The position numbers and the translations under genes are program-made. DNA of 64,000 bases from a virus: the IMG/VR virus record IMGVR_UViG_3300050821_001948, positions 62,001 through 126,000 of that record; one strand, 5' to 3'. The notes beneath the pieces are model-generated. The model searched no databases, had not been told where the DNA came from, and worked only from the letters and a program-made list of their open reading frames with translations. Every line of letters begins with the position of its first letter. The first letter of the stretch is position 1. This document shows positions 14,681-26,702 of the stretch, one piece after another.

Positions 14681-14754
14681 GCGCCTGGGACCGAACGGTT
14701 TGACGGTACTGAGCTTATATCTCAGCGGACAAGGTTCAATTCCTTGCGGGCGTA
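14681..14754 (+). tRNA. tRNA-Ile(TAT)
   Basis: Acceptor GCGCCTG/CGGGCGT, anticodon stem CTGAG/CTCAG with loop CTTATAT; reads the AUA codon. Confidence 0.88.
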
Positions 14755-16298: not shown

Positions 16299-16370
16299 GC
16301 CTCGCTAGCTCAGAGGAAGAGCAGCCGACTTTTAATCGGCGGGTCGGGATATCGTAATTCTCGCGGGGTA
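16299..16370 (+). tRNA. tRNA-Lys(TTT), unusual T-loop
   Basis: Acceptor GCCTCGC/GCGGGGT, anticodon stem GCCGA/TCGGC with loop CTTTTAA. The T stem CGGGA/TCTCG encloses a 9-nt loop TATCGTAAT instead of 7 nt. The ArfB-like gene starts 2 nt downstream and may use the GGGG of the acceptor as ribosome site. Confidence 0.8.
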
Positions 16371-16371
16371 C

Positions 16372-16716
16372 ATGGTGAAAGAAAAGCTATTCTCGGTAAC
16401 GGTTAACGACTGCGAAGTGCAGACCTTCCGTTCTGGTGGTAATGGCGGTCAAAACCAGAACGTTCGCGATACTGGCGTTCGGATTATTCATCATCCATCG
16501 GGCGCTCGCGGTGAGTCACGCGAGGAGCGTTCTCAGCTACAAAATAAGAGAACCGCCTTCCGAAGAATGGCTGAGTCTGCTAAGTTTAAGATCTGGATTA
16601 CTCGGGTCGTCGGAAATCGACTTTCACCCGAACAGCAGGTAGAGAAAGATATGCAGGAAGCGAACTTGAAAGTTGAGGTTCGTGATGGTAAGGTTTGGAA
16701 AGTTGTGCCTCACTAG
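16372..16716 (+). CDS. arfB-like: ArfB/RF-1-domain peptidyl-tRNA hydrolase, 114 aa
   Basis: The core FRSGGNGGQNQNVRDTGVRI carries the GGQ catalytic motif of class I release factors. There is no codon-recognition domain; a C-terminal extension (FKIWITRVVGNRLSPEQQ ... DGKVWKVV) follows. Stand-alone GGQ proteins such as ArfB/YaeJ release peptides from ribosomes stalled without a stop codon. The basic tail of ArfB that enters the empty mRNA channel is not obvious here, so release-factor-H-like action is also possible. Start ATG at 16372, 2 nt after tRNA-Lys. The stop TAG (16714-16716) is bases 8-10 of tRNA-Arg, so RNase P cut at that tRNA would leave a non-stop mRNA. A tmRNA gene lies 3.2 kb away. 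Confidence 0.85.
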   Translation: MVKEKLFSVTVNDCEVQTFRSGGNGGQNQNVRDTGVRIIHHPSGARGESREERSQLQNKRTAFRRMAESAKFKIWITRVVGNRLSPEQQVEKDMQEANLKVEVRDGKVWKVVPH

Positions 16717-18762: not shown

Positions 18763-18838
18763 GCTTCTATAGCTCAGTGGAAAGAGCGTCTGGCTACGAA
18801 CCAGAAGGTCGGGAGTTCGAATCTCTCTAGGGGCACCA
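18763..18838 (+). tRNA. tRNA-Arg(ACG) with encoded CCA
   Basis: Acceptor GCTTCTA/TAGGGGC, anticodon stem TCTGG/CCAGA with loop CTACGAA, ending ACCA. Confidence 0.92.
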
Positions 18839-18839
18839 T

Positions 18840-18882
18840 CGTTCAGAGGCCAAACGGTCAGGCACCGCTCTCATAAGGCGGG
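18840..18882 (+). tRNA. 5' half of a split tRNA(CAT)
   Basis: CGTTCAG acceptor strand, D arm GCCAAACGGTCAGGC, anticodon stem CCGCT/GGCGG with loop CTCATAA, then GG and an abrupt end in the variable loop. The matching 3' half is at 19411-19445. Confidence 0.75.
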
Positions 18883-18897
18883 CAACCCGCCGATATT

Positions 18898-19365
18898 ATG
18901 AAAGTGAAGAATTGTTCAAATTGCAAGCAAACCAAACCGCACAGTGAGTTTGGCCGTAACGTAGCTACGAAAGATGGTTTACAGTATCACTGTAAGCAGT
19001 GTCGAAACGCTTACCTGAAAACTTGGTACTCTGAGAACAAGGACTTACAAAAAAGTCGAGTCCAGAAAAATACCAAAAAGAAGGTTGATGACCGCAGAAA
19101 TTTGATACGGGAAATCAAAGAGTCGACACCATGCGCAGACTGTGGTATCCTCTACCCTCCGTACGTCATGGATTTCGACCACCTCCCCGGAAGTGAGAAG
19201 ATTACATCCATCTCATCCTTATCGCAAGGATGGCGTGGGAGCGTCGAGATACTAAAAGCGGAGATCCTAAAGTGTGAGCTTGTATGTGCCAACTGTCACA
19301 GAATTAGAACTCACAAAAGGCGCGTCAACGCTGGGAAGCCGAAGGGTGAGGCACCTCTCTCATAA
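18898..19365 (+). CDS. HNH endonuclease inserted in a tRNA, 155 aa
   Basis: N-terminal zinc finger CSNCKQTK...CKQCR (residues 5-39), a basic linker, then the HNH core: CADCGILYPPYVMDFDHLPG (C-x2-C and the D-H) and CELVCANCHRIRTHKRR (C-x4-C-x2-CH). No Shine-Dalgarno is visible before the ATG at 18898. The last 37 nt overlap tRNA-Met at 19329, and the stop TAA lies in its anticodon loop. Together with that tRNA it interrupts another tRNA(CAT), so a homing role is likely. Confidence 0.85.
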   Translation: MKVKNCSNCKQTKPHSEFGRNVATKDGLQYHCKQCRNAYLKTWYSENKDLQKSRVQKNTKKKVDDRRNLIREIKESTPCADCGILYPPYVMDFDHLPGSEKITSISSLSQGWRGSVEILKAEILKCELVCANCHRIRTHKRRVNAGKPKGEAPLS

Positions 19366-19403
19366 AGAGGCCGTCGTGGGCTCGACTCCCACTCCAGCGA
19401 CCA
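19329..19403 (+). tRNA. tRNA-Met(CAT) with encoded CCA
   Basis: Acceptor CGCTGGG/TCCAGCG, anticodon stem CCTCT/AGAGG with loop CTCATAA, T arm GTGGG-CTCGACT-CCCAC, ending ACCA. It could be elongator Met or the Ile2 precursor. It lies inside the element that splits the tRNA at 18840/19411. Confidence 0.88.
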
Positions 19404-19410
19404 TCTAACC

Positions 19411-19445
19411 GGGTATAGTTGGTTCGATTCCAACCTGGACGACCA
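19411..19445 (+). tRNA. 3' half of a split tRNA(CAT), with CCA
   Basis: Variable loop GTATA, T arm GTTGG-TTCGATT-CCAAC, acceptor strand CTGGACG that pairs over 7 bp (one G-U) with CGTTCAG at 18840, and ACCA. Joining the halves at their shared GGG gives a tRNA with a normal 5-nt variable loop. Confidence 0.75.
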
Positions 19446-19446
19446 T

Positions 19447-19518
19447 CGGCTCGTAGCTCAGAGGAAGAGCACGCGGTTCCTATCCGTGGTGTCGGGGGTT
19501 CGACTCCCTCCGGGCCGA
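19447..19518 (+). tRNA. tRNA-Arg(CCT)
   Basis: Acceptor CGGCTCG/CGGGCCG, anticodon stem CGCGG/CCGTG with loop TTCCTAT, T-loop TTCGACT. Confidence 0.88.
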
Positions 19519-19524
19519 CAATGG

Positions 19525-23359: not shown

Positions 23360-24586
23360 GTGCAGTTAGACGATCTGATTGATCCAGAAGCCCTACGTAA
23401 GAAAATAGATCTTGGCCACGTAGCTGAGCGCCACCACTGTACCCTCCCCCTAGCTATCCTAAATTACACGGCCCGATGCCAGTACGCTAACGACTGGGAT
23501 GAGGTCACCTCAAAGACTCGTGGTTTAATTTACAACACTGAGACAGGTAAGATTGTCGCTAGGCCCTTCGAGAAGTTCTTCAATCTGGGTCAGCACACTG
23601 ATGATGAGATCCCTACTGGACCCATACGTGTCTTAGAGAAGATGGACGGTTCTCTTGGGATTCTTTATGACACACCGGATGGGTTAGCTATCGCAACTCG
23701 CGGATCATTTCATAGCGAACAGGCTGAGCACGCAACTGAGGTTCTCCGATTCAACATAGAGCACTATTATGGTCCAGGCTCTAAGCTTCCGTTTAGTCCA
23801 GACCTTGAGAATCATACATATCTTTTCGAGATCATCTATCCAGCGAATCGCATCGTTGTGGATTATGGATCAAAAGATCTGTTAGTGCTTTTGGATGTTT
23901 TGGATATTGAGACAGGAATGGCAGTTCCTGAGTTCGATCTGTATGATCAGCGTTATTATTTTGGACCTCATGTTTATCGTCATGAGGGGATTAAAAGCCT
24001 TTCTGAATTGATCGACAGAGATGTGCCAAATGCCGAAGGCTATGTCGTTGTTTTTGACAATAACTTCCGTGTTAAGGTCAAGCACGCTGAGTATGTTCGG
24101 CTACATAGAATTCTAACGAACGTTACTGCTCGTAGTATTTATGAGTGTATAGCTGTAGAGGATCTAAAGAAGAGGGGCTTCGGAGCCAAGGAGATAGCAC
24201 GATCTATTAGTATTAGCGACGAAGAGGTTGAAGATTATCCCTCACTAGCGCAGCTTCTAGACGGAGTTCCGGATGAGTTCTACTCTTGGGTCCACAAGGT
24301 GGTTCATCGACTAGAAACGGCATTCTCCGAGATTGAATCTGAGGCCAAGATTGAGTTCTTGAATAATTTAGCCTTCATCGATGTCCCCCTTCCCGGCTTT
24401 GAAGAATTCGATCAGCAGCCAGTGAAGGATGGTCGAGCTGAGTTCGCTAAGGTTGCGCAGAAGAGTAAGTATGCTAGTATGATGTTCCTGATGTATGATG
24501 GTAAGCCTTACCACCAAGCTATCTGGAAGATATTGCGCCCCGAGCACGAGAAGCCATTTGGAGAAAGGACAGAGGATGTATCGTGA
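23360..24586 (+). CDS. T4 Rnl1-like RNA ligase, 408 aa
   Basis: LEKMDGSLGILYDTPDGLAI carries nucleotidyltransferase motif I (K-x-DGS; Lys is adenylated). SKTRGLIYNTETGKIVARPF upstream and the later LFEIIYPANRIVVDYG (motif IIIa-like) and EGYVVVFDNNFRVKVKHAEY (motifs IV-V) complete the ligase core; the last ~150 residues are helical. It seals 3'-OH/5'-PO4 RNA ends. With the end-healing enzyme directly downstream (4-nt overlap), it is the classical T4-type pair that restores tRNAs cut by anticodon nucleases. GTG start. Confidence 0.9.
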   Translation: MQLDDLIDPEALRKKIDLGHVAERHHCTLPLAILNYTARCQYANDWDEVTSKTRGLIYNTETGKIVARPFEKFFNLGQHTDDEIPTGPIRVLEKMDGSLGILYDTPDGLAIATRGSFHSEQAEHATEVLRFNIEHYYGPGSKLPFSPDLENHTYLFEIIYPANRIVVDYGSKDLLVLLDVLDIETGMAVPEFDLYDQRYYFGPHVYRHEGIKSLSELIDRDVPNAEGYVVVFDNNFRVKVKHAEYVRLHRILTNVTARSIYECIAVEDLKKRGFGAKEIARSISISDEEVEDYPSLAQLLDGVPDEFYSWVHKVVHRLETAFSEIESEAKIEFLNNLAFIDVPLPGFEEFDQQPVKDGRAEFAKVAQKSKYASMMFLMYDGKPYHQAIWKILRPEHEKPFGERTEDVS

Positions 24587-25467
24587 GTGATCGTAGAGAT
24601 TTCTACATGACCAAGGGCCTCCCTGGCTCCGGGAAGAGCACCTGGGCAGCCGAGTACGTCCTGAATAGGGCTCCTGGTAAGGCTGTTAGGGTCAACCAAG
24701 ATTTACTTCGGATTATGTTGCACCTTGACCGCTTCGGTGGAGGTAAGACCGAGCCTCTCGTTCAGGGCGGTCGTAGCCTGTTAATCGAACTCGCTATGCA
24801 AAACAACGTTGAGGTTGTTATTAGTGACGATACCAACTTTCATCCCGATTGCGAAAAGGAATTTCGTAGGTTATGTGAGAAGCATGGTTATCAGTTCACG
24901 ATTAAGGACTTCACTGATGTTCCTGTTGAGGAATGCATCAAGCGTGACTTGAAGCGCACAGCCTCTGTTGGTGAACAGGTCATCCGCAAGATGTGGCGTC
25001 GTTACTTAGTTCCTCCGAAGGCTCCCACTAACCCGGAGGACTTCGATCCCAACCTACCGACAGCCGTTATGGTAGATATTGACGGAACTGTGGCTATTAT
25101 GAATGGTCGAGGTCCCTATGACCCAACTCTCTACCACACCGATATTCCACACAAACCCGTAGTTCAGCTAGTTAAGGACTTACACGCTGCTGGTGAGGAG
25201 ATAGTTTTCTGCTCGGGTCGAGATGATACTTACTGGCAGGAAACTCATAATTGGCTCACTACCCACCTTGGGTTCCTTCCTAATCACCTCTTCATGCGTC
25301 CGGCCGCTGATAAGCGTAAGGATGCCATCGTAAAGAAGGAACTCTACGAGGCAAAGATAAAAGGTAAGTTCAATATTCGTTTCGTTCTAGATGACCGTAA
25401 TCAGGTTGTTGAGATGTGGCGCGATGAGGGGCTTACTTGCCTCCAGGTTGCTGATGGGAATTTCTAA
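24583..25467 (+). CDS. polynucleotide kinase-phosphatase (T4 PseT-like), 294 aa
   Basis: N-terminal kinase with P-loop GLPGSGKSTWAA (residues ~13-24) and SDDTNFHP. C-terminal HAD phosphatase with VMVDIDGTVA (D-x-D nucleophile motif), VFCSGRDD and RFVLDDRNQVVEMWRD. The same kinase-then-phosphatase order as T4 Pnkp: it phosphorylates 5'-OH and removes 3' or 2',3'-cyclic phosphate ends, preparing RNA for the upstream ligase. Overlaps the ligase stop. Confidence 0.92.
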   Translation: MSDRRDFYMTKGLPGSGKSTWAAEYVLNRAPGKAVRVNQDLLRIMLHLDRFGGGKTEPLVQGGRSLLIELAMQNNVEVVISDDTNFHPDCEKEFRRLCEKHGYQFTIKDFTDVPVEECIKRDLKRTASVGEQVIRKMWRRYLVPPKAPTNPEDFDPNLPTAVMVDIDGTVAIMNGRGPYDPTLYHTDIPHKPVVQLVKDLHAAGEEIVFCSGRDDTYWQETHNWLTTHLGFLPNHLFMRPAADKRKDAIVKKELYEAKIKGKFNIRFVLDDRNQVVEMWRDEGLTCLQVADGNF

Positions 25468-25661
25468 TGACGCGAATTCCAGTAATCTATGATGAGGGTT
25501 CTTTTGCGACTCTGGTCAGGGCTGTTTGGACGCGCGAGGCGGTTATATATGGAGGAGAATGCTCACATGGAGCAGACGGTCCAGACTGCTTTAGCTGTTC
25601 AGAGGCGACAGAGCGACTGGTAATCGGTGCAGCGATGCACTTGAATGTGAAAAGATCGTGA
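25467..25661 (+). CDS. unknown small Cys-rich protein, 64 aa
   Basis: Starts at the last base of the kinase gene. A central CSHGADGPDCFSC cluster may bind a metal. It overlaps the next gene by 4 nt. Function unknown; operon context is RNA repair. Confidence 0.65.
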   Translation: MTRIPVIYDEGSFATLVRAVWTREAVIYGGECSHGADGPDCFSCSEATERLVIGAAMHLNVKRS

Positions 25662-26026
25662 GCCTAGAAGACATTCCTATTTGTGGCGCAAGTAAGGGCT
25701 CCCTGGTTTGCCTAAAGGAGCAGCATCGCGGTAGACATCTATTCAGACCAACTCCTCATGTGCCACCTCCTCGCTCTTGGTCTGGAATCGATTTTATTGA
25801 GATTGAAACAGGTCTCATTCGTAACCCAACTGCTAGAATTACTGTTGGGGATGTCGTTGGTGTCATCGGGAAACAGGGCGACTGGCGTGTCATTAGAATA
25901 GAGCAGCATACGGAGTCTATGGTTATAAACGTGGAGGTAAAGGCTCCGAATACTGGCCACTCTCATGTGTATAGGGTTGAGGATATCCGTTACCGTAGAC
26001 CAATAAAGGTGAAGCAATATGCCTGA
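25658..26026 (+). CDS. unknown protein, 122 aa
   Basis: GTG start. N-terminal ICGASKGSLVCLKEQHRGRH (two Cys and two His, possible zinc knuckle), Pro-rich linker, then a beta-rich domain (DVVGVIGKQGDWRVIRI) resembling a small barrel. Overlaps the nucleotidyltransferase gene by 8 nt. Function unknown. Confidence 0.65.
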   Translation: MSLEDIPICGASKGSLVCLKEQHRGRHLFRPTPHVPPPRSWSGIDFIEIETGLIRNPTARITVGDVVGVIGKQGDWRVIRIEQHTESMVINVEVKAPNTGHSHVYRVEDIRYRRPIKVKQYA

Positions 26027-26702
26027 CAGGGACTATATATTCAAAGGAATCACTGGGTCTGTAGCTTACGGTTTAGATACCGAGGATAGCGATGTTGACC
26101 GGAAGGGTATATTCGTTTTCCGAACTGAAGAAATATTTGGGTTGAAGACACCCGATGAGACGGTGACTAGCAGCTCTCCTGACTTTCAGGGCCACGAAAT
26201 AGGTAAGTTCTTCAGACTGGCGCTTGGATGTAACCCTAACCTTATTGAGTTGATGTTCCTTCCTCAGAATTGTGTTGAGCTGGAGGATTCAGTTTTTACT
26301 TTCATCAGGGCAAATAGAACAAAGTTCTTATCAGAGGGAGCGGTCAGAGCTGCCTACGGCGGATATGCACGTCAGCAACTATCTCGTATCGAGAGACGGA
26401 TGTCTGTTGATGGTGAAACAGCTAGTGAGACAGATAAGCGGGTCAAGAAGCATGCCAGGCATTGTTTTCGACTATTTGATCAGGGGGCTCAGTTACTTCG
26501 CGACGGGGTTATGGATGTCCGTGTAACGAAGGAAAAGCGCGAGGAGCTTTTCGCCCTTGGTGACGTTCCTTTTCCTCGTCTATCTGAAATGTTCTTGGAA
26601 AAGGATGCAGAGTTTAAGGCGATCCCGTCTAACCTACCCGATTCTCCTGATTCAGAATGGGTTAACGAACTCCTAGTCGAGATTAGGAAGATGCGTGTCT
26701 GA
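26019..26702 (+). CDS. RlaP-like nucleotidyltransferase, 227 aa
   Basis: GSVAYGLDTEDSDVDRKGI is the GS-x-D-x-D signature of the DNA-polymerase-beta superfamily, in the form found in the YcgL/RlaP family annotated as RNA-repair-pathway nucleotidyltransferases. NPNLIELMFLP and the helical second half also fit. It lies in the same operon as the RNA ligase and kinase-phosphatase, so addition of nucleotides to damaged RNA is a reasonable guess; substrate not known. Confidence 0.8.
   Translation: MPDRDYIFKGITGSVAYGLDTEDSDVDRKGIFVFRTEEIFGLKTPDETVTSSSPDFQGHEIGKFFRLALGCNPNLIELMFLPQNCVELEDSVFTFIRANRTKFLSEGAVRAAYGGYARQQLSRIERRMSVDGETASETDKRVKKHARHCFRLFDQGAQLLRDGVMDVRVTKEKREELFALGDVPFPRLSEMFLEKDAEFKAIPSNLPDSPDSEWVNELLVEIRKMRV

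Follow-up and report, generated by a model that had tools for sequence, protein, structure and literature searches.

The window analyzed here, a stretch of 64,000 nucleotides (nt) that forms part of a viral contig of 130,643 bases (IMG/VR record IMGVR_UViG_3300050821_001948), contains an array of 34 transfer RNA (tRNA) genes according to ARAGORN, including the gene for transfer-messenger RNA, and within this array the two halves of a broken tRNA(CAT) gene enclose a gene for an HNH endonuclease and an intact tRNA(CAT) gene. The gene order is tRNA-Arg(ACG) (18763-18838), the 5′ half, the HNH gene, the intact tRNA(CAT), the 3′ half and tRNA-Arg(CCT) (19447-19519). The features of the locus are the following:

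18840..18881, plus strand: 5′ half of the split tRNA(CAT), with acceptor strand, D arm and anticodon arm (ARAGORN on the joined halves, structure scan, homologous core)
18866..18906, plus strand: inverted repeat, in which part of the 5′ half (the anticodon loop and the 3′ strand of its stem) faces a near-complementary copy over the start of the HNH gene (RNA fold)
18892..18897, plus strand: possible -10 hexamer (GATATT), located 6 nt upstream of the GTG start codon; it fits the offset seen across the family and is weak here
18904..19365, plus strand: HNH endonuclease gene, for which an open reading frame (ORF) from an ATG at 18898 is also possible (phrog_2255 HNH endonuclease profile, E 6e-35; alignments; structure model)
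19329..19403, plus strand: intact substitute tRNA(CAT), into which the 3′ end of the HNH gene extends (ARAGORN; Rfam, 48.9 bits)
19411..19445, plus strand: 3′ half of the split tRNA(CAT), with variable loop, T arm, acceptor strand and CCA (ARAGORN on the joined halves, structure scan, pairing test)

The 5′ half carries the acceptor strand CGTTCAG and the anticodon arm CCGCT-CTCATAA-GGCGG, and the 3′ half carries the variable loop GTATA, the T arm GTTGG-TTCGATT-CCAAC and the acceptor strand CTGGACG, followed by an A and CCA. When joined, the halves (18840-18881 and 19413-19445) were identified by ARAGORN as tRNA-Met(cat) across many choices of join point, with all seven acceptor positions paired and an uninterrupted anticodon stem. 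Furthermore, a 21-base core of the 5′ half, GGCACCGCTCTCATAAGGCGG, was found in seven other viral contigs, always within an intact tRNA-Met(CAT) in which the core, GGCGGG and a variable loop containing TAT correspond to the junction of the joined halves; the sequence of the 3′ half was found in this phage alone among the viral contigs searched. Since dense tRNA arrays could place fragments of different tRNAs close to each other, we considered the possibility that an HNH-tRNA pair happens to be flanked by two unrelated fragments. However, only 9 of 1056 mismatched pairs of 5′ and 3′ strands from the phage's own tRNAs reach full acceptor pairing, none of its other acceptor strands pairs with either half at 6 or more of the 7 positions, and the architecture recurs in survey loci and phage pairs, all of which reduces the probability of a chance arrangement to a negligible level. 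Likewise, no other pair of 5′ and 3′ halves was detected by the structure scanner between 18600 and 19600. The original prediction, which held that the acceptor strands of the halves are complementary, that the joined halves form a tRNA and that an HNH gene and a complete tRNA(CAT) lie between them, is borne out in all three respects.

The intact tRNA(CAT) is a different tRNA from the split one and not a copy of it, and the TAA stop codon of the HNH gene falls in its anticodon loop. In many members of the HNH family the 3′ end of the gene overlaps the following tRNA, often by 9-38 nt. At the other end, the GTG at 18904 is more likely to be the start codon than the ATG at 18898, because the peptide MKNCSNCK aligns with MKTCxxCK in the family. 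Eight residues (C77, C80, D92, H93, C128, N130, C131 and H132) are shared by all 34 sequences of an alignment and make up the D-H...N...H catalytic motif and a metal site of four cysteines. An AlphaFold2 model of the protein has a predicted local distance difference test (pLDDT) score of 94; a fold search of the PDB gave weak matches, of which the best was an HNH nickase, and the protein falls below the match level of the Pfam HNH family. The gene is free-standing, with its own start and stop codons outside any intron or intein, and it is the sole recognized gene in the insert, where the integrase expected of a tRNA-integrating island was not recognized.

We think it highly probable that the locus represents a free-standing HNH homing cassette that entered a tRNA(CAT) gene immediately 3′ of its anticodon and that brought along a complete tRNA with the same anticodon. 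The old tRNA gene would be lost in this way, while its decoding function would be kept by the second tRNA. An alternative is that the HNH gene is borne by a self-splicing or other intron that is removed from the tRNA precursor. This has a precedent in bacteria, where group I introns reportedly encode an endonuclease specific for the tRNA-fMet gene at its anticodon region (Bonocora and Shub 2001, cited in PMC3984707). No intron family was matched between 18700 and 19550 at gathering or relaxed thresholds, the insert contains a complete tRNA, bases are lost at the break in a related cassette in the phage Wofford, and no tRNA gene of a phage is reported to contain an intron in a review from 2014 (PMC3984707); an intron is for these reasons exceedingly improbable.

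The homing hypothesis is supported by filled and empty sites of related cassettes in Streptomyces phages, for which three pairs were identified: Wofford/Karimac, Jada/Gilson and TunaTartare/Faust. At the nucleotide level, a comparison of the window locus with phages yielded nothing beyond tRNA-level matches. Wofford encodes the best-matching HNH protein among sequenced phages (44%), and its tRNA-Met(CAT) is interrupted immediately 3′ of the anticodon loop. The insert consists of the HNH gene, a second, intact but different tRNA-Met(CAT) and a small ORF, and both old halves remain, which is the same anatomy as in the window. The alignment of Wofford and Karimac stops at ...CTCATAATCT in the tRNA-Met(CAT) and restarts at ATTCCTGTTCGAATC..., 3 nt further on in the empty site of Karimac and about 700 nt further on in the filled site of Wofford, so that 3 nt of the junction are gone from the Wofford halves. 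Among 95 records with matches to the Wofford region, the HNH stretch is covered in two Wofford records, Anedea and Riptide; the cassettes of the latter two are 95% identical to that of Wofford in a genomic background that is about 73% identical. A stretch of 46 nt in Anedea and Riptide that contains the 5′ half of the tRNA is identical to Karimac, as predicted by co-conversion, although an identity of this kind in divergent genomes gives no more than a hint of preferential inheritance. In Jada and Forrest, a tRNA-Met(CAT) present in Gilson has given way to an anticodon-loop remnant, the HNH gene and another tRNA-Met(CAT) that differs from the first; the flanks are 99-100% identical between Jada and Gilson. 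In TunaTartare, the tRNA-Arg(ACG) of Faust has been rebuilt with a new T arm and is followed by the HNH gene and then by the displaced old 3′ half.

One-sided restorations such as that in TunaTartare resemble the outcomes of repair, and it is conceivable that cutting by the HNH enzyme and microhomology repair shuffle or duplicate tRNAs locally, without any homing, and that the halves are the debris. In line with this, SegB of phage T6 cleaves inside tRNA genes and drives the amplification of a tRNA-segB unit, in which the 3′ end of segB and the 5′ end of the tRNA share microhomology (PMC13096335). However, the substitutes differ from the split tRNAs rather than being copies of them, Wofford, Anedea and Riptide share the unit in otherwise diverged genomes, and the flanks are undisturbed in the filled and empty pairs. 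We therefore consider local rearrangement unlikely, and favor insertion by homing.

To place the locus in a wider context, we surveyed a non-redundant set of 81 HNH loci, each with a tRNA located at most 150 base pairs downstream, and compared the 15-base anticodon core of this tRNA with the gap before the HNH gene in a permutation test. Matches to the core on the same strand were strongly enriched in the gap (z = 8.7; 0 of 20,000 permutations), and at least 8 core bases were matched in 15 loci, compared to 0.7 expected. The recurrence covers many isoacceptors in both phages and bacteria, examples of which are Asn(GTT) in L115, Arg(ACG) in L096 and L097, Arg(CCT) in L104, Gly(TCC) in L103, L168 and L071, Lys(CTT) in L124, L219 and L250, Val(TAC) in L117, His(GTG) in L005, Arg(TCT) in L009 and a clade with Phe(GAA) in L188, L197, L198 and L207. 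Both halves were recovered by a strict test in two loci, the window and L250 from Nostoc, compared to 0.04 expected. The strict test is too narrow, as it missed Wofford, recognized by reading and from the Karimac alignment, and L009, L117 and L005, the halves of which were spotted by eye; L009 was also mis-scored in the permutation tests, since its intact tRNA is missed by ARAGORN. The phylogeny of the HNH proteins tracks the anticodon, with 43 changes compared to 58.9 in shuffled data (0 of 200). Relatives of the HNH gene frequently adjoin tRNA genes, in viral contigs as well as in bacterial genomes; among the bacterial relatives, 56 of the 79 loci inspected have a tRNA gene nearby. These counts do not measure prevalence, because tRNA-adjacent members supplied the alignment used in the bacterial scan and in the second of the viral scans and because the loci are related to each other, the Phe(GAA) set being a single clade.

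A tRNA array in Nostoc (L250/L256) has the same architecture at a tRNA-Lys(CTT), with both halves kept, and the element is thus also present in bacterial replicons. In relatives elsewhere, the halves are decayed or partnerless. The recurrence over the 81 loci, the Nostoc locus, the HNH phylogeny and the filled and empty pairs together lend strong support to the predicted homing element that destroys a tRNA and supplies a substitute with the same anticodon. The pattern is family-wide and not peculiar to the window phage. We also observed tRNA-like genes in an odd order downstream of the HNH gene in Mildred21 (L088:1937-2012, annotated as Phe) and in L009 (3410-3483, with an Arg(TCT) anticodon arm), both at approximate positions, in which an anticodon-like hairpin is located shortly after the acceptor strand with a D-loop-like stretch behind it. 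These are possibly chimaeras left by HNH elements.

An inverted copy of the anticodon loop may play a part in the regulation of the HNH gene. The segment 18866..18906 is predicted to fold into an RNA hairpin of -24.3 kcal/mol (z -2.7), so that the 5′ half would pair with the start region of the HNH gene instead of forming an anticodon arm. Reverse-complement copies of the anticodon loop between the remnant and the HNH start are often present in the survey loci (z = 5.0), and long perfect inverted copies were identified in IchabodCrane and Nostoc. Furthermore, TATAAT-like hexamers are enriched 12 nt upstream of the start codon (10 of 44 at this position), and the spacing suggests leaderless HNH transcripts. 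Given this pattern, the inverted copy is a candidate operator or, alternatively, a hairpin that may sequester the start codon. Both have precedents, as intron endonucleases in T4 have proven or putative operators resembling the homing site over their own promoters, and start-sequestering hairpins occur in several homing endonuclease genes (PMC2988022). The arrangement is reminiscent of the autorepression of I-TevI, in which a target-like copy overlaps the promoter of the endonuclease itself (PMC2988022), whereas the likeness in the HNH loci is one of sequence pattern, with an inverted anticodon loop near a -10 hexamer. In IchabodCrane (L262:849-905) and in L200 and L206 from Acidobacteriota, the HNH gene follows an intact tRNA-Arg(ACG) and is not itself followed by a tRNA; the gaps contain inverted repeats with the anticodon loop CTACGAA, and no broken tRNA is visible.

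The original prediction also raised the possibility of a functional split tRNA, the RNA halves of which would be joined by the RNA ligase and kinase-phosphatase of the phage. Genes for these enzymes are indeed located near the tRNA array (23360-26702), where we identified a T4 Rnl1-type RNA ligase, a PNKP-like kinase-phosphatase and an RlaP nucleotidyltransferase, and both halves in the window are well preserved with full acceptor pairing. However, such a set fits a general role in tRNA repair and is by itself no argument for joining of the halves. A tRNA with the same anticodon sits between them, and the decayed halves elsewhere, the loss of junction bases in Wofford and the predicted competing hairpin of the 5′ half all speak against rejoining, for which we found no support. 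A functional split tRNA is accordingly very unlikely. Within the array we also noted a release-factor-like gene with an RF-1 domain (16372-16716) and two tRNA genes (14681-14754 and 16299-16370) that are found by Rfam and missed by ARAGORN.

We infer that homing with a replacement tRNA could proceed as follows. The HNH protein would recognize the anticodon region of the tRNA gene and nick or cut it 3′ of the loop, and repair from a coinfecting genome that bears the cassette would copy the HNH gene and the substitute tRNA in between the halves, which would serve as homology arms. The halves in the window are best seen as such arms and as scars. The substitute, which differs 3′ of the loop, would escape cutting, and the inverted loop copy next to the start of the HNH gene could limit expression in either of the two ways described above.

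Several observations weigh against this scenario. The search for an uninterrupted site gave a mixed result: empty sites were identified for the related cassettes in the three phage pairs, but none was found for the window phage, the terminase relatives of which consisted only of a contig identical to it and of a 44% relative in which no tRNAs were detected. The architecture varies, as TunaTartare restores its tRNA on one side only, and some relatives adjoin an intact tRNA without a visible remnant. Finally, the anticodon loop is common to the target and the substitute, and the specificity of the HNH enzyme must therefore lie outside the loop.

HNH genes are widespread in phage tRNA arrays, for which just a general role in the spreading of tRNAs has been proposed (PMC5966550, PMC6409571). 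The anatomy described here supplies a concrete mechanism, in which the HNH enzyme would attack a tRNA gene at its anticodon region and compensate for the damage with a spare tRNA. This would account for the duplicated, chimaeric and broken tRNAs in phage tRNA arrays, and the neighboring anticodon would predict the cutting target of many HNH enzymes. A study of Cluster M mycobacteriophages has reportedly linked HNH genes to tRNA diversity. Intronless homing, SegB in tRNA regions and intron-borne endonucleases for the anticodon region are all known. In the open literature searched, the coverage of which is incomplete, we found no earlier description of an HNH cassette that splits a tRNA and carries a spare with the same anticodon, and we provisionally regard it as an undescribed variation on intronless homing.

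Integrative islands that target tRNA genes insert into the gene and restore the tRNA with sequence borne by the element. The rebuilt tRNA in TunaTartare resembles this restoration, whereas the insert in the window has no integrase beside its HNH gene. Another known system is the intronless homing of SegF, SegG and MobE in T4, where a non-intron endonuclease gene moves, together with its flanks, to alleles without the gene (PMC2988022, PMC3984707). However, the T4 genes adjoin their targets, whereas the HNH gene in the window lies inside the tRNA gene, and the cassette differs from the free-standing T4 endonucleases in leaving half-tRNA scars and bringing a different tRNA with the same anticodon. 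SegB in T4 and T6 is likewise a homing endonuclease encoded among phage tRNA genes, and it cleaves tRNA genes internally (PMC13096335), but it belongs to the GIY-YIG family and is listed between tRNA-Arg and tRNA-Ile (PMC2988022), and the text found on SegB describes no split tRNA with a same-anticodon spare. The endonuclease of Bonocora and Shub (2001) reportedly also homes into the anticodon region of a tRNA, but it is encoded by an intron and splicing rescues the tRNA, whereas rescue in the window would come from a second tRNA gene without any intron. With slightly better than even confidence, we hypothesize a widespread and apparently undescribed natural class of home-and-rescue elements in phages and bacteria, in which HNH enzymes, each directed at the anticodon region of a single isoacceptor, are coupled to different tRNAs with the same anticodon and control themselves through an inverted loop copy at the HNH promoter. 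Such elements would represent a natural parallel to the engineered home-and-rescue drives, in which a nuclease is placed in its target gene along with a functional copy; the drives are synthetic Cas9 constructs in Drosophila, and the likeness is one of analogy only, not of kinship (PMC7968924).
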